DNA of 38,677 nucleotides from a virus. The DNA is taken from the IMG/VR virus record IMGVR_UViG_3300048587_000158, positions 1 through 38,677 of that record, one strand, 5' to 3'. Positions within the stretch are counted from its first letter, which is position 1. Each line of letters begins with the position of its first letter. Of the stretch, positions 16,262-31,075 are shown in pieces. The notes beneath the pieces are model-generated. The model ran no database searches and had not been told where the DNA came from. It worked only from the letters and a program-made list of their open reading frames with translations. Both the position numbers and the translations under genes were made by a program.

Positions 16262-17542
16262 TCAGGTCTCCGGCTGCTTCAGCCAGTGCATGAGCGCGGC
16301 GCGCACCGCGTTGGAGTCGGAATCGGTGCTGCCGAGCTGGTCGATCGGAATCAGCGCGGATTGAACGGTGAAGATGTCGCCGCCAGGGATTGGCTGCAGA
16401 TCCTCAAGCTCTCTAACTTCGTTTCTGCTCATCCATCCGTGGTCCAAGGCGGATGAGTAGAACGACGTGCGGCCGGCTGTGTCAGCGCGCAGCAGGCCCT
16501 CGACCGAGAACTTCGGGAAAGTGTCGATTTGCTCGACTGGCGAGAGCAGCTGAAACCTGATGGCATCTTCGAACCGCTTCAGCCAGGAATTCAGCCCGTA
16601 CTGCAGGAACCACAGGTTCATTGCCTCCGAACTGCTCGCCCAACTCGACGCCTTGGACGTGTGCCCGATCATCGGAGGCGGAACGCCGAACCATCGGCAG
16701 ATTTCCTCGATGTCGAAGCCGCGGCTTTCGAGCAGCTGCGCATCAGCAGGGTCGATGCCGATCTCGCCGACCTCGATGCCGCCCTCAAGAACCGGCGGCT
16801 TGCCGGCGTTCAGTGATCCGTGCAACTTGTCGATTGTCTGATCGCGGAAGGTGTCGCGCTGCTCTGGCGTCAGCCACTTCGGGTACTTGTAATACGTGGT
16901 CGGCATCAGCCCGTTTTTGAACGTGCCCTTTGCCGCATTGTTCGCAGCAAGCGCGCCGCCGATGACCTCGGCGCCGTACTGGATCACGGACAAGCCGAAA
17001 GGCCCGCAGGTTGTGAATCCAGGGACATGCAGAACGTCGCGTTGCGGAATCTCCCGGAATGTCCCGTCCGGCTCGGTGTAGCTGAACAGGTAGGACCTGT
17101 CCGCCTGCCGTGCCCAGCGCAACCGATCAGGGTGCAGGAAGGTCAGCCCAACGACCCTTCCGCCGATTCGATCAATCTCCGCGAACCCATCGCCGCGAAG
17201 CATCGCGCTCGCCGCCATGCACTCCCACAAGATCGACGAGGTCATGCGCAGGTTTGCGCGCATCCCGATGATCCGGTTCAGCGGGTGCCGCTCATCGTAG
17301 ATGCGCCGCCCGCCGTCCTTCTTGTAGATGCCGACCGGCAATGATCCGATGGTCTGCGCGACCAGGCGCGTGCACGCCCATACCGCGGAGAGCGTGAGCG
17401 CCTCGCCCGCATTCACGCGGACGCCGGACTTCGAATCCTGACCCATGAACTGGCGCCAGTGTTCGACGTCGGACCATCCGAACCCCAGCCAGTTCAGAAC
17501 TGCCGACTTGATCCGACCTGGCTTGCGGGCTTTGTTCGTCAT
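16262..17542 (-). CDS. Portal protein, HK97 family, 426 aa
   Basis: Contains ALTLSAVWACTRLVAQTIGSLPVGIYKK, the conserved portal N-terminus, DVLHVPGFT, the basic EICRWFGVPPPMIGHTSKASSWASSSEAMNLWFLQ clip/wing segment, and ELEDLQPIPGGDIFT at the C-terminus. These are the hallmarks of phage portals of the HK97 type. ATG overlaps the terminase stop (ATGA). It forms the dodecamer through which DNA is packaged. Confidence 0.95.
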   Translation of the reverse strand: MTNKARKPGRIKSAVLNWLGFGWSDVEHWRQFMGQDSKSGVRVNAGEALTLSAVWACTRLVAQTIGSLPVGIYKKDGGRRIYDERHPLNRIIGMRANLRMTSSILWECMAASAMLRGDGFAEIDRIGGRVVGLTFLHPDRLRWARQADRSYLFSYTEPDGTFREIPQRDVLHVPGFTTCGPFGLSVIQYGAEVIGGALAANNAAKGTFKNGLMPTTYYKYPKWLTPEQRDTFRDQTIDKLHGSLNAGKPPVLEGGIEVGEIGIDPADAQLLESRGFDIEEICRWFGVPPPMIGHTSKASSWASSSEAMNLWFLQYGLNSWLKRFEDAIRFQLLSPVEQIDTFPKFSVEGLLRADTAGRTSFYSSALDHGWMSRNEVRELEDLQPIPGGDIFTVQSALIPIDQLGSTDSDSNAVRAALMHWLKQPET

Positions 17543-20361
17543 CGTCCGGTCACCGGGTTGGAAAGGAAGCCATCGATGTCACCTTCCGGCAACACCGAAA
17601 GGGCTACGCCGACCGCCATGTAGAGAGCAGCCATGTCGTCGATCTTGTCGGGACTCCGGCGCTTGTCCGGGGCCATGTTCATGTTCGCGTCGTAACGCGG
17701 TATCAGGTTACTCGCGCACCAGCGCAGCACCGGGTCTCCGCCGTGCACAAGGTCGCCGGATCGGTACGCCCGGTCCACCTCCTGCATCGCCGGGTGATAG
17801 GACTTCGGTCCCTGAATGAACCGCACCAGCGGCAAGCCGTCTTCCAGCAACCGGTTGCTCAAGTCCTTTGCGTTCCAGTCGTCAAACGCGATCGACTGCG
17901 GCGAGAACCTTGCGACATCCTCGCGGATGGCCTGCTCGATCACCGCATAGTCGACGGTGTCGCCGCCAGTCTGGCTGACGTGGCCGCCCTCGACCCATGC
18001 TGCGTAAGTGTTCGCGCCTCGCTGCGTCCGGTGCCTCACGGCTTCTTCCGGCACCCAGCGCCGACCCCATGTGTACCACTTGCCGTCGACGCGCCAGACG
18101 AGCCGCCATGCGGTCATGTCGGTGGTGCTGGACAGGTCCAATCCAGCCCAGCACGGGTACTGAGCCAGCCAGTCGAGGTTTATCGCCCCGTCGCAGCGGT
18201 TCCACTTGCGAATGTCGATCAGCGACTTCGCGTTGCTGCTCTGCCGGTTCAAGCGCTTGATCCGGAACTCGGCGAGCTTGCCGGGCATGGCCCGCGCTTC
18301 GATCGCTTCTTTCCGGATCGCCGCCAAAAGATGCGGGTTCGCATCGGCCAGCGGGTTGGCCTTGATCCATGCCGTCTCGTCGAAGTCTTCATCCTCGTCG
18401 TCGACGGCGAAGAACAGCGCAAGGAAGTGGTCGGCCGTTACGCCGAGAACACCCTCAAGCACCTGGCGCGCGAAGTGGCGAAGCTCAGGCCACGGCCCGG
18501 GCGTTTCATATCCCTCGGTCGTCGTGAACAGCCACAGCGGCGAACTGCGCGCGCCGGCAGCGGACTGCAGCACGTTCAATAGGTCGCCCGACTTGTGGGC
18601 GTGGATCTCGTCGAGCGCCGTGTGCGACGGGTTCAGGCCGTCTTGCGTGCTGGCCTTCGCGTTGATCGGCTTAAAGCCCGCGCCGGTCTCAAGTCGCGTG
18701 ATCGCGTTCGCCCAGCACTCGAGGCCGAACGCCTCGCGCAGCGCGGACTTCTTCTCCGCCATCCGCTTGGCCACGTTCCAGATGATCCGCGCCTGGCTGC
18801 CGGTAGTCGCTGCGCTCACCAGCTGCGCGCCTGGCTCATCCTCGCAGCACATGCAGTACAGCATGATCGCTGCGGCCAGAGTGCTGTTGTGCGTCAGCAG
18901 CATGGACTTGCCAAACAGAAACAGACTGTCCGGCGCATCGACAGTGATGCACTTGACCGGCACGGGCGGAACTCGATCCGCCGCAACGATTTGCACCGTT
19001 CGCGACCGCGGCGTTCCTGCTTGATCCAGCATCCGATCCAGTTTGCGACGCAACCTGAAAACCGGAAGCTGGTCCCGGAATGCCATGAACTGCAGCTTGT
19101 GGCCGGTCCCTGAAACCTCGATGCCGTTGCAAACCAGTCGCTCCCGCCGCCACGAGTACTTCAATCCGAAGCTAGCAAGCAATTCCGCTACGCCGCGCGT
19201 TAGCTGTTCGCTGGTTGACGTGAAACTCAGGACTCTCCCGCTCTTGCTGATCGTTCCGTCGGTGTCCATCAGCCCCTGCAGAAGCGCAAGCCGCTGTTCT
19301 CGCGAGGCTCGAAGGTAGATTGCTGGAATCCCCTTGTTGCCAAGCACACCTGTCGCTCGCAGTTGAGCCGCGAGACTCTTATTGCGAGCGGACTGCGTAC
19401 GGTCGCCATCAGAAATGACGAACGTGGACGCCTTGCTGCCGTTGCAATACTTTTCCCGCACTGGCCAGCCATCAGCGCGAATGCCGTCGATGATCTCGAT
19501 GTCGTCGCGATCACATGTGATCCGCGCCGCCGCCGAGTGCCCGTCTCCAAGCCACGCACCAAGCGTGTATGGCGAGATAGGCAGCGATGCGACCGCACAC
19601 TGCAGCGGCTTAGGCATAAGAATCGAATGGTTCGTGTCGCCGCGCGCGCCACACTTCAGCGTCGCTGCGATTTCCTCCGTCGTTCGGACTCGCGTGCGAG
19701 TCGCGCCGTTGGATGTTCGCGCACCGTTCGGCTGATCGATTCGCGCCGATGTGAGCCAGCTATGACCCGCGTCCGCCACAACTTCTTCGCCGTTGCTGAA
19801 TTTCAGCCGGTAGCATTCGTGGTCAACGTAGACCGGGCTGACTGCCGTCACCGAACACGGCTTGCCATCAGCTCCGAACACCACATCACCCGGAGCCAGA
19901 TCGCCCATGGTCGACCAGCCCGAAGGCGTGGGGACCGGAGTATCCAACGCGAGCGCTTTAGCGTTCTTGCGCGCGACCGCGAACAGCGCCGACGTGAAGC
20001 GCCGCGTCTTGTCCGCCTTCCGAAAGCCGAACAGCTGCACCACGAAGAAAACGTGCGACGGATGCAGCACGATGTTCGGGGTTTCCCAAACGCCCTCGAC
20101 GTGCGGCAGCTTCTCGATGAAGTCGCAGGCGTTGTGTGCCTCCCACTCGTCGAACTTGAACGGCGCGCGCTTCCCCTTGGCGCGGCGTAGGTCATCGATG
20201 AATCGGCGCGCGGCGAGCTTAATCAGCCGGCCGAACTTCTTTCCCGAGCGGTCGGCGATGGCCTCGCGGGCGTAGCCTTCAGCGATCGCGACGTAGTCAC
20301 GCCCGCGGCTTGGCCTGCTTCCTGTTTTGCGTGAACTCGTTTTTCGCTGGCTCGTCGCCAT
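17539..20361 (-). CDS. terL: Terminase large subunit with inserted intein, 940 aa
   Basis: ATP-driven packaging motor and nuclease. Extein is 583 aa, the usual size. Walker A is split: residues 131-135 RKNAK, then the intein (136-492), then 493 STLAAAI; splicing restores RKNAKS. Walker B is ALDEIHAH. Nuclease: GLDLSSTTDM and SPDKIDDMAAL, the RuvC-like acidic motifs. ATG lies within the TerS reading frame (65-nt overlap with its end). The packaging motor should be inactive until splicing, since the P-loop Ser comes after the intein. See the intein entry. Confidence 0.96.
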   Translation of the reverse strand: MATSQRKTSSRKTGSRPSRGRDYVAIAEGYAREAIADRSGKKFGRLIKLAARRFIDDLRRAKGKRAPFKFDEWEAHNACDFIEKLPHVEGVWETPNIVLHPSHVFFVVQLFGFRKADKTRRFTSALFAVARKNAKALALDTPVPTPSGWSTMGDLAPGDVVFGADGKPCSVTAVSPVYVDHECYRLKFSNGEEVVADAGHSWLTSARIDQPNGARTSNGATRTRVRTTEEIAATLKCGARGDTNHSILMPKPLQCAVASLPISPYTLGAWLGDGHSAAARITCDRDDIEIIDGIRADGWPVREKYCNGSKASTFVISDGDRTQSARNKSLAAQLRATGVLGNKGIPAIYLRASREQRLALLQGLMDTDGTISKSGRVLSFTSTSEQLTRGVAELLASFGLKYSWRRERLVCNGIEVSGTGHKLQFMAFRDQLPVFRLRRKLDRMLDQAGTPRSRTVQIVAADRVPPVPVKCITVDAPDSLFLFGKSMLLTHNSTLAAAIMLYCMCCEDEPGAQLVSAATTGSQARIIWNVAKRMAEKKSALREAFGLECWANAITRLETGAGFKPINAKASTQDGLNPSHTALDEIHAHKSGDLLNVLQSAAGARSSPLWLFTTTEGYETPGPWPELRHFARQVLEGVLGVTADHFLALFFAVDDEDEDFDETAWIKANPLADANPHLLAAIRKEAIEARAMPGKLAEFRIKRLNRQSSNAKSLIDIRKWNRCDGAINLDWLAQYPCWAGLDLSSTTDMTAWRLVWRVDGKWYTWGRRWVPEEAVRHRTQRGANTYAAWVEGGHVSQTGGDTVDYAVIEQAIREDVARFSPQSIAFDDWNAKDLSNRLLEDGLPLVRFIQGPKSYHPAMQEVDRAYRSGDLVHGGDPVLRWCASNLIPRYDANMNMAPDKRRSPDKIDDMAALYMAVGVALSVLPEGDIDGFLSNPVTGR
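18886..19956 (-). mobile_element. Class-3-like intein with LAGLIDADG endonuclease, 357 aa, in TerL P-loop
   Basis: Starts at Ala136 (ALALDTPVPTPSGW) where most inteins have Cys/Ser, so the usual N-terminal nucleophile is absent. The three residues that define class 3 inteins are visible: Trp202 two residues after block B His200 (GHSWLT), Cys471 in block F (VKCITVDAP, position 4), and Thr490 before the terminal His491-Asn492; +1 residue Ser493. The endonuclease carries LGAWLGDGH (268-275) and LLQGLMDTDGT (360-370), the two LAGLIDADG (DOD) motifs, so homing may still work. GC of one sampled line is 60%. Confidence 0.92.
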
Positions 20362-24572: not shown

Positions 24573-24919
24573 GTTGGCGTCACCACGACGCGCAGCGCGC
24601 CGCCGCGAAGCGGCCCAAGCCTGACGATCGTCAACTCGTCGATCTGCTCATCGTCGACCCACAGGCCGGCGTGCGTGAGCGCGTCAAGCGGCGCCTTCAA
24701 AAGATTATCCAGGTCCCTCTTACGCTTGTCTGGCGGCTGCGCCTCGATGCGGACCGACAGGCGACCATTGAGCGGGCGGGATCCGCGAACGTACATCAGG
24801 ACGCACTCGCCGACCTCTTTGCGGTATCGCCGACCGTCCGCAGAGATCAGCACTTGCGCGCCGACGTGGCGCCAGTATGTGTTGACGGATGGGGGCCATG
24901 GGAGGGAAAGGGCGATCAC
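24569..24919 (-). CDS. rusA: RusA-family Holliday junction resolvase, 116 aa
   Basis: GTG start overlapping the helicase stop (GTGA). Family pattern is clear: PWPPSVNTYWRH at the N-terminus, KRKRDLDNLLKAPLDAL with the acidic pair Asp69/Asp71, and GLWVDDEQIDEL. These metal-binding Asp residues form the active site. Resolves branched replication intermediates before packaging. Length matches the family. Confidence 0.9.
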   Translation of the reverse strand: MIALSLPWPPSVNTYWRHVGAQVLISADGRRYRKEVGECVLMYVRGSRPLNGRLSVRIEAQPPDKRKRDLDNLLKAPLDALTHAGLWVDDEQIDELTIVRLGPLRGGALRVVVTPT

Positions 24920-26190
24920 GCTGCATCCGCCATGCCACTGAACTTCACGATCGGCGCATTGAACTTGACTCTGATCATCCCGATGGCTCCGTGTCGATTC
25001 TTCTCAAGGATCAGCTCGGCCGTTCCGCGCATTGGCGACTCCGGGTTGTAGACCTCGTCTCGGTACAGCATCAGCACTTGGTCGGCCTCCTTCTCCAGTG
25101 CGCTGGAGTCGCTCAGGTCCGCCATGCCGGGCCGCTTGTTCGTGCGCTCGTCGACCGCGCGCGATACCTGCGCCAGCGTGACGACCGGAATGTTCAACTC
25201 GCGGGCCAATTCCTTGAGGCCCTCGGCAACCTCTGCGACGCGCTCATGCCGCGGCTGCTTGGCGTTGCCGTGCTTGATCCGCTGCAGGTAATCGACGTAC
25301 AGGATCTGGATGCCGCGCTCGACCTTCCAGCGGCGAGCAACGTGCACGACCTCGGCAAGCGTCGGCGCCGGCTTGTCGTAGATCACGCAGTCCTGCTGCG
25401 TGAGCGCGCTGATTGCGGCGGTGCACATCGGGAACTCATGCTCCTCGATCTGACCGGCACGCAGGGCAGAAACCGGGACGCGCGAGGTCATGCTGATAGC
25501 GCGCTGCCCGATCTGGTTGGATGACTGCTCGGCGCTGATGAATCCGCGCGACACGTCTGCGGCCTGTGCCATCGACAGCAGCAACGCCGTTTTGCCCATC
25601 GCCGGGCGCGCGCCTATCACGACCAGGTCGCCCGGGTGGAACCCACCCAGGTAGTCGTCCAGTTCAACCAGCCCCGTGGTGATACCGCGCAGCTTTCCGC
25701 CGTTCTGGTAAGCGGCCTCGATCTCTTCCCATGCCGCCTTCGTCGCCTGGCGCATGGTGTGCTCGCGAGCCTGCTCGGTGCTCGCCAGCGCCAGCAGTGC
25801 GCGCATGGCTTCCTGAGCGCCCTCCTGCGTTGGGTTGTCGCTCAGCGCGCTGGCGATCTCGCGGGTTTTGCGCTGGGTGTGCCGGTCGACCAGGATCTTG
25901 GCGTAGGCCGCAATGTTGGCCGCGCCAGGCGTTGCCTCGGCAAGGTCGGCGGCATAGTTGGCCGCATCGATCCCGCGAGATCCGTGCCGACGCTGCAGGT
26001 AGTCCATCACCGTGACCGCGTCGATCGGCGTGCGGTCGGCGTTCATCGCGACCAGGACGCCGAACAGCCAGCGATGGCGCAGGTCGGTGAAGTGCTCTGG
26101 CTGCAGGTCGGAGACCCTGGCCGCAGCCTTCTCGCCGCCGATCATCATCGCGCCGAGAACGTAGCACTCGGTGTCGAGGATGTTATCCAC
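24916..26190 (-). CDS. Replicative DnaB-like helicase, 424 aa
   Basis: N-terminal DnaB-like domain (ECYVLGAMM, DLRHRWLFGVL) and a RecA-like core with Walker A GARPAMGKTAL (Lys200), the AQAADVSRGFISAEQSSNQ segment, and Walker B-like IQILYVDYLQRIKHG. GTG start overlaps the initiator gene's stop. Together with the DUF1376 gene it forms a replication pair like lambda O/P. No intein is present. Confidence 0.95.
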   Translation of the reverse strand: MDNILDTECYVLGAMMIGGEKAAARVSDLQPEHFTDLRHRWLFGVLVAMNADRTPIDAVTVMDYLQRRHGSRGIDAANYAADLAEATPGAANIAAYAKILVDRHTQRKTREIASALSDNPTQEGAQEAMRALLALASTEQAREHTMRQATKAAWEEIEAAYQNGGKLRGITTGLVELDDYLGGFHPGDLVVIGARPAMGKTALLLSMAQAADVSRGFISAEQSSNQIGQRAISMTSRVPVSALRAGQIEEHEFPMCTAAISALTQQDCVIYDKPAPTLAEVVHVARRWKVERGIQILYVDYLQRIKHGNAKQPRHERVAEVAEGLKELARELNIPVVTLAQVSRAVDERTNKRPGMADLSDSSALEKEADQVLMLYRDEVYNPESPMRGTAELILEKNRHGAIGMIRVKFNAPIVKFSGMADAA

Positions 26191-26995
26191 GGCGGGCGTG
26201 CTCCAGCGGTCTGTGGGACGCCTTGAGCGGCTCCGGTGGCGGCTGGACGAGTTGCAGTTGGGCGACGTTGGACTTGCGGTGCTTGATCGCCGCGATCAGC
26301 CAGGCGACTGGCTCGATGACATCCTCGGCCTCGGCTCGCTGCAGCAGCTCGGCCACCGTGAGGCGGTCGGTTTCCTTGATCGCCAACCCGATGGCGCTTC
26401 TGGCCTTGCCCTCGGTGACGCCCTTGCGTTTCATCCAGTTCAGGCCATGCGACCAGATCAGGTCCGGCTCTTCGGCGGCTTTTTCGCCCGGCAAAGCCGG
26501 AAGCTCTTTCTTTGCTTCTTCGTGGCTTATGGCTAGTGGCTTATGGCTAAGGTTTCCAGATGAAAGCGGCGACCCTGTGTCGTGGGTTCTGTCTGGGTTA
26601 GCTCTGGGTTCTGTTTGGGAACCCAGAAATAACCCACTGGGTTTTACTTCGGCTCCATCTGGGTTTCCAGATCGCCGCGGACGGCCGCCGCTCTTGCCGT
26701 TGTTTCTGTTCCGATCAGCGATCTCAGCAGCATCCGCGATCTCCTTGTCGCAGCGCGCATGCCGCCAGCCTTCCGGCGTTTCCGTGAAGAACTCGCGCAG
26801 CACACTGGCGACCGCATCGCGCTCCTGTTCGGACACCGCCCGCACGAGTCTGCACGCCTGCGCCATATCCAACGGGATCGGCTGCTCCTTTCGGTAGTAC
26901 AGGCTAATCAGCCTGCGATACGCGCAATCCTCAAGCATCGACAGGTGCGCCGTGGCGCTGTCGTAATCTCCGATGTGGAACTTGTAGTAGTTCAC
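26183..26995 (-). CDS. DUF1376-containing replication initiator-like protein, 270 aa
   Basis: MNYYKFHIGDYDSATAHLSMLEDCAYRRLISLYY is the DUF1376 N-terminal domain; a basic NNGKSGGRPRRSG linker and a variable middle follow (LSHKPLAISHEEAKKE), then a DnaC-like C-terminal part with AEEPDLIWSHGLNWMKRKG and AVAELLQ-like segments. GTG overlaps the preceding stop. The odd middle (SGLFLGSQTEPRANP) is coded by repeats described as an origin candidate. Confidence 0.85.
   Translation of the reverse strand: MNYYKFHIGDYDSATAHLSMLEDCAYRRLISLYYRKEQPIPLDMAQACRLVRAVSEQERDAVASVLREFFTETPEGWRHARCDKEIADAAEIADRNRNNGKSGGRPRRSGNPDGAEVKPSGLFLGSQTEPRANPDRTHDTGSPLSSGNLSHKPLAISHEEAKKELPALPGEKAAEEPDLIWSHGLNWMKRKGVTEGKARSAIGLAIKETDRLTVAELLQRAEAEDVIEPVAWLIAAIKHRKSNVAQLQLVQPPPEPLKASHRPLEHARRG
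26522..26672 (-). repeat. Iteron-like repeat cluster inside the initiator gene (candidate origin)
   Basis: CTGGGTT occurs at 26593, 26604, 26637 and 26659, and inverted at 26620; degenerate copies lie at 26583 and 26631. GGTTTCCAGAT is repeated at 26551 and 26662. GTGGCTTATGGCTA is a perfect 14-bp tandem duplication at 26522-26549. The middle is low in GC. Lambda's origin is likewise a set of iterons inside the initiator gene. Confidence 0.6.
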
Positions 26996-27790: not shown

Positions 27791-28021
27791 TCAGGCGGCC
27801 TTTTGGTCGGGCTGGCGGTCCCAGACGTCCGGGCGCAGCTCATGGAGTGCGATGATCCCGTTCGTGTCGTCGCTGACCTGCTTGGCAACCTTGACGCTCA
27901 CGCCGCGGATGCCGTTCACGATGTGATCGACCATCCCGCGCGAGATGCCCAGACGCTTTGCCGCTTCGCCCCTGCCGCCGACGAAGACCACGTAACGCTC
28001 GAATGCAGTGTGCTTGCTCAT
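27791..28021 (-). CDS. Cro-like repressor (helix-turn-helix), 76 aa
   Basis: ATG at 28021 (MSKHTAFERYVVFVGGRG); HTH with GEAAKRLGISRGMVDHIVNGIRGVSVKVAKQV, like YdaS/Cro proteins. It is transcribed leftward from a promoter containing the operator 28031-28045, opposite to the CI-like gene. The frame to 28048 would start upstream of the operator and is not preferred. Confidence 0.8.
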   Translation of the reverse strand: MSKHTAFERYVVFVGGRGEAAKRLGISRGMVDHIVNGIRGVSVKVAKQVSDDTNGIIALHELRPDVWDRQPDQKAA

Positions 28022-28028
28022 GTCGCGC

Positions 28029-28058
28029 AACCTACACCCGGTAGGCATGGCGCGTCAA
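28029..28058 (-). promoter_or_regulatory. Early leftward promoter of cro operon
   Basis: Minus strand: TTGACG (28058-28053), 18-nt spacer, TAGGTT (28034-28029), just ahead of the cro start at 28021. The -10 overlaps an operator, and the -35 lies 11 nt after a second operator-like box. Matches the design of the plus-strand promoter at 28524-28551. Confidence 0.6.
28031..28045. promoter_or_regulatory. Operator O1 at cro promoter
   Basis: On the minus strand CCTACCGGGTGTAGG, a near-perfect dyad (CCTAC...GTAGG). It differs from the operator at 28535-28549 at 1 of 15 bases and overlaps the -10 region of the cro promoter, so the CI-like or Cro-like protein would block it. Confidence 0.75.
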
Positions 28059-30866: not shown

Positions 30867-31075
30867 GCAACCCTTCACGAATCTACGTCGTCGGTCACAT
30901 CGAATCCGGCAGCAAGCGCCTCGTGCGCGCCGTCACATCCGGCCAGGCCGCGCGCCACGCCATGCGGACGTCGCACGCCGTGACCGTGGCGACCCAAGAC
31001 GAACTGGTTGACCTGGTGCGCGCCGGTGTCGATGTTGAGGATGCGACGCGGGAGACGTTGGAGCAGGCGGCATGA
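30863..31075 (+). CDS. Unknown recombination-region protein, 70 aa
   Basis: SNPSRIYVVGHIESGSKRLVR, AVTVATQDELVDLVRAGVDVE. A small acidic protein, ATGA overlap at both ends, between the exonuclease and the ATPase genes. Not recognised. Confidence 0.6.
   Translation: MSNPSRIYVVGHIESGSKRLVRAVTSGQAARHAMRTSHAVTVATQDELVDLVRAGVDVEDATRETLEQAA

Follow-up and report, generated by a model that had tools for sequence, protein, structure and literature searches.

A candidate replication origin within the linker-coding part of a phage DUF1376 gene

In phage lambda the replication origin lies in the middle of gene O, where iterons stand together with an AT-rich tract (PMC7466680). A dense cluster of repeats inside a putative replication gene of another phage raises the question of whether a protein family unrelated to O may carry its origin in the same way. 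The DNA analysed here (IMG/VR record IMGVR_UViG_3300048587_000158, 38,677 nt; the whole stretch is hereafter the window) belongs to a temperate tailed phage, with genes for portal, terminase, capsid, tape measure, integrase, a YdaS-like regulator and exonuclease. A sequence-only reading had proposed an iteron-like origin at 26522–26672, similar in logic to the lambda origin.

Anatomy of the gene and its repeats

The gene product is a clear member of the DUF1376/YdaU family, matching PF07120 over residues 2–87 (E = 1.4e-31; 109.1 bits against a cut-off of 30.1), and also matches PHROGs "primosomal protein" families. PF07120 was the only Pfam match at E ≤ 0.01, with none to the lambda O/Phage_rep_O family and none in the C-terminal region. 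No credible DUF1376 relative was found among solved structures searched by sequence; one match to an LTV1 structure (E = 0.015) spans charged helical sequence and was regarded as a chance match. The next gene shares 8 bp with the end of the DUF1376 gene and encodes a DnaB-type helicase (DnaB_C, E = 3.2e-77; DnaB N domain, E = 7.9e-20; phrog_19, E = 1e-92). The features are, with their evidence in brackets:

26183..26995, minus strand: DUF1376 gene, proposed replication initiator, 270 aa, GTG start (Pfam, PHROGs, translation)
26735..26992, minus strand: DUF1376 domain, residues 2–87, proposed DNA-binding domain (Pfam and alignment for the domain; DNA-binding role predicted)
26672..26701, minus strand: basic segment NGKSGGRPRR, residues 99–108, proposed iteron-specificity element (segment class against iteron word)
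26662..26672, plus strand: GGTTTCCAGAT, copy adjoining the outermost iteron (repeat search)
26583..26665, minus strand: iteron tract, seven AACCCA/TGGGTT cores (sequence, repeats, positions, significance)
26551..26561, plus strand: GGTTTCCAGAT, copy adjoining the 7-nt ladder (repeat search)
26522..26549, minus strand: 7-nt ladder, four AGCCA units on the coding strand, equal to the 14-bp tandem duplication (repeats and relatives)
26183..26488, minus strand: C-terminal region, residues ~169–270, proposed helicase/loader contact (predicted from domain layout)
24916..26190, minus strand: DnaB-type replicative helicase gene (DnaB_C, DnaB N domain, phrog_19)

Repeats were found at 26522–26672 as the sequence-only reading had claimed, in a linker preceded by the DUF1376 domain and its basic segment and followed by the C-terminal region. 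The five CTGGGTT units it described comprise four on the plus strand (26593, 26604, 26637, 26659) and one inverted copy at 26620, with a single further copy elsewhere in the window (7732), and its two GGTTTCCAGAT repeats are present at 26551 and 26662. These iterons could be refined to seven AACCCA/TGGGTT cores, five of them direct (plus strand; 26583, 26594, 26605, 26638, 26660) and fitting an exact 11-bp grid (26583 + 11k), and two inverted (minus strand; 26620 and 26631, 11 bp apart). Equally real is the perfect 14-bp tandem duplication, which proved to be four 7-nt units, forming a separate, strand-asymmetric ladder with TGGCT at 26523, 26530, 26537 and 26544 on the non-coding strand. This 28-bp ladder sits 3′ of the iterons within the gene and has a local GC content of ~48–57%, hence its A+T-richness is only moderate.

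As a null for the window tract, the same peptide was recoded synonymously 20,000 times. The seven core sites observed compare with a mean of 0.33 and a maximum of 3 under window codon usage, and with a mean of 1.2 and a maximum of 5 when the codons were permuted, while the 14-bp duplication had no occurrence in the 20,000 codon-usage recodings. As 11 is not divisible by three, the repeats pass through every reading frame, and the 11- and 7-nt spacing found in all three rules out a peptide repeat. In single-stranded form the iteron tract shows unusually strong folding (z = −5), as the inverted iterons would lead one to expect. Cumulative GC skew, which had been suggested as a check, did not point to the repeats: its minimum falls at 30,979, ~4.4 kb from them, and gene orientation confounds it, so skew was dropped as origin evidence.

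Two further observations concern the surrounding genes. A YdaS-like HTH protein is encoded upstream of the DUF1376 gene (27791–28048, minus strand), and the order ydaS-ydaT-ydaU-ydaV in the E. coli Rac prophage resembles that of the window. A 940-aa ORF (17539–20361, minus strand) matches the terminase large subunit over residues 492–928 (phrog_9), and other terminase profiles, as well as primase and DnaC-like loader profiles weakly, over residues ~120–500; the ORF seems to combine two ATPase modules.

Conservation of both tracts and selection on DNA across the family

Both tracts recur at the equivalent place when divergent DUF1376 genes are compared, and most members of this large family share the two-part layout. 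Most of 13 genes read at the equivalent position, from phages of Vibrio, Acinetobacter, Pseudomonas, Xanthomonas, Thalassomonas and Chlorobiaceae as well as from metagenomes, have both, and distant genes preserve the order of the tracts, which occur in every reading frame and with lineage-specific sequences. In the closest relative found (L035:3363-4184, 60% identity over the protein) the core AAACCCAGTGGGTTATTTCTGGGTTCCCA is identical to that of the window and the ladder has five AGCCA units in 7-nt steps. Near copies of the window core AAACCCAGTGGGTTATTTCTGGGTT occur in another frame in L014, a Pseudomonas phage, and in L061; in the window it encodes KPSGLFLG, and the near-identical AAACCCAGCCGGTTATTTCTGGGTT of L014 encodes KTQPVISGL. 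A 25-base degenerate pattern for the window core matched at least 119 viral loci, mostly close Acinetobacter relatives, and 116 of the matches listed were inside DUF1376 ORFs. In the record of Vibrio phage 1.183.O, a CRISPR spacer match is annotated at the iteron tract of the DUF1376 gene (L006:2861-2890).

For family-wide statistics, 280 DUF1376 ORFs from the fetched loci were reduced to 111 representatives sharing <50% of 3-mers; owing to shared ancestry within a class, gene counts are not independent events. Linkers of the 57 representatives with a GGR-class basic segment hold 202 copies of AACCCA, where codon usage predicts 45 and permuted synonymous codons 69, and 49 of the 57 have two or more copies against 10.8 expected. 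Same-strand distances between these sites fall at 11 (n = 57), 22 (n = 35), 33 (n = 24) and 44 bp (n = 18), and also at 55, and the sites are spread over the reading frames (46/50/59). Pairs 11, 22 or 33 bp apart number 56, 37 and 23 inside DUF1376 genes, and 0, 0 and 0 in 825 kb of flanking DNA. The shorter word AACCA recurs at 7 (n = 130), 14 (n = 102), 21 (n = 71) and 28 nt (n = 44), and also at 35; of its sites, 221 are on the coding and 11 on the opposite strand. The window ladder is the counterpart of this AACCA ladder in relatives.

A motif-free measure of self-similarity gave the same two periods, each half of the family showing lag peaks at multiples of 7 and 11 that exceed synonymous permutation. 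Individually, 46 of the 111 genes reached p < 0.01 for 11n and 58 for 7n, while the control lags 8, 9, 10 and 13 did so in 0, 7, 1 and 2 genes. Both tracts reach this threshold in 24 genes, and in all of them the 11-bp one comes first, 5′ of the 7-nt one. As the same tracts occur in all three frames, selection acts on the DNA rather than on the protein. The N-terminal domain is conserved in the family, while C-terminal parts and next genes vary; in a set of 72 next genes that includes that of the window, Pfam identified DnaB_C (n = 12), IstB/DnaC-like ATPases (n = 11) and lambda P (n = 5).

The family includes YdaU of E. coli K-12, a member of the GKAS basic-segment class encoded in the Rac prophage beside the ATPase YdaV; no functional assignment for DUF1376/YdaU was found in the open-access literature searched. 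The ydaU gene has GTTCAAA words at a 33-bp spacing, the only clear spacing in the gene; 33 is also a multiple of three, so ydaU alone is no proof of DNA-level selection and was not counted as such. An active origin, oriJ, has been reported for Rac (PMC3945230). On plasmid pSWBY1 a DUF1376 gene with its own iterons and ladder stands together with a gene for an ATP-binding protein (L296:20629-22262), and mobilization genes are nearby. This element is possibly a second replicon; a separate RepM gene lies beside it, hence it need not be the sole replicon there.

Iteron words and the basic segment

AACCCA was rejected as a universal iteron, since other lineages have other words. Across the 111 genes, with a partial check on held-out genes, the iteron sequence appears to track the class of the basic segment behind the domain. 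The segment classes are also lineages, thus this is an association and not proof of recognition. An 11n-spaced AACCCA pair occurs in 39 of 57 genes with a GGR (GGRP) segment and in 0 of 54 others. CAATGC accompanies the RW segment in 14 of 20 genes, against 3 of 91 others; these three are unclassified, and several members of the unclassified group have an RW-like segment missed by the pattern. For the remaining classes the word sets were picked after inspection, with GTTSAA/CAACG in 6 of 11 GKAS genes (1 of 100 others) and GTGAC/GTTRC in 12 of 15 RQRR genes (0 of 96 others).

With the rules frozen, 24 held-out genes covering the GKAS and GGR classes gave the class word in 7 of 12 GKAS genes and 2 of 6 GGR genes, two of those six not being of the GGRP type, and no cross-class word match was seen among the classified genes of this set. 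One gene (L453) is an exception to the class rule, having 11n-spaced AACCCA and no GGR segment.

Origin interpretation and alternatives

The best reading of these sequences is a lambda-O-like origin within an initiator gene of an unrelated protein family. The candidate shares with the lambda origin its position mid-gene in the putative initiator, the order of iterons then a probable unwinding tract, and a helicase or loader gene next. The in-gene layout for which lambda had been invoked is alike, but the protein has no sequence relation to lambda O. The details also differ: lambda has four 18-bp iterons 20–24 bp apart, a size and spacing that the window tract does not share, with its 6–7 bp cores, 11-bp grid and inverted copies; the lambda tract is AT-rich, whereas that of the window is a regular 7-nt ladder; and the next gene in lambda encodes the loader P, but in the window DnaB itself.

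The RK2 (TrfA) and F (RepE) plasmid origins offer a second likeness, as double-stranded iterons adjoin a repeat-bearing unwinding element, although no sequence relation was found between the window protein and these systems. Plasmid iterons typically lie outside the rep gene, unlike the window tract, and the RK2 unwinding element has 13-mers where the window has 7-nt units. Plasmid Rep proteins bind both the iterons and one strand of the unwinding-element repeats, and changes to these repeats abolish replication (PMC4081077).

By analogy, we infer protein binding, strand opening and helicase loading at the window repeats. With its N-terminal domain and the GGRPRR basic segment behind it, the DUF1376 protein would bind the AACCCA/TGGGTT iterons. 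The 11-bp step would place successive sites on nearly one helix face, hence protomers could stack into an array, and this array would melt the adjoining tract. The 7-nt ladder is probably the unwinding region. One of its strands, the coding strand with ANCCA every 7 nt, would be engaged by the DUF1376 protein, or by a helicase complex that it recruits, and held in a 7-nt register; DnaB from the overlapping next gene would then be loaded at the ladder and forks would start.

Several alternatives could account for some of the repeats. Replication slippage in an unstructured protein region might leave meaningless repeats in a neutral low-complexity linker, and the linker is indeed variable and rich in P, N, S and T, with a 14-bp duplication resembling a slippage product. 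Comparative sequence data already contradict this: spacings of 11 and 7 nt, neither divisible by three, are kept across divergent genes in all frames, the same DNA words are read in different frames, the excess goes beyond synonymous permutation, and 825 kb of flanking DNA has no 11n AACCCA pairs, making slippage extremely improbable. The tract could also be a conserved boundary favouring recombination of N- and C-terminal initiator modules, with no origin role, which would suit the conserved N-terminal domain and the variable C-terminal parts and next genes. However, such a boundary needs neither helical phasing nor sequence change in step with the adjacent basic segment, and we consider it very unlikely.

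The repeats might instead be operators for autoregulation or silencing of the early operon, by the DUF1376 protein or a different phage regulator, with replication starting elsewhere. Arrays of inverted and direct sites suit a repressor too, and the gene is in the early region near the YdaS-like regulator, but the sites are inside the gene, ~330 nt past its start, and no promoter-like site was found at the repeats. Operators would also leave unexplained both the conserved strand-asymmetric ladder, always 3′ of the sites, and the frequent helicase or loader neighbours, hence we regard this account as unlikely.

The repeat anatomy, its conservation throughout the family, the selection on DNA and the gene neighbourhood instead favour the candidate iteron-type origin proposed by the sequence-only reading. 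We put at roughly 85% the probability that 26522–26672 is the phage replication origin, located where the phage's own initiator gene encodes the linker and working by the mechanism above. With less confidence, we lean towards the view that the entire DUF1376/YdaU family are origin-binding initiators, each with its own linker-coded origin of 11-bp-phased iterons and a strand-specific 7-nt ladder, and that the basic segment sets which iteron is read.

If this family reading is true, it would define a new class of iteron origin, in which a one-face array is followed by a single-strand register, and a simple protein–DNA specificity code. DUF1376 proteins are common in phages and prophages, YdaU of E. 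coli K-12 included, and the reading would give them a precise, testable job, placing the probable origin to ~150 bp in hundreds of temperate phages. The natural pairs of iteron and basic segment would form a series for studying how an initiator reads its origin, and the 7-nt ladder would be a clean candidate for strand-specific recognition of single-stranded DNA as the origin opens, a step still under debate.
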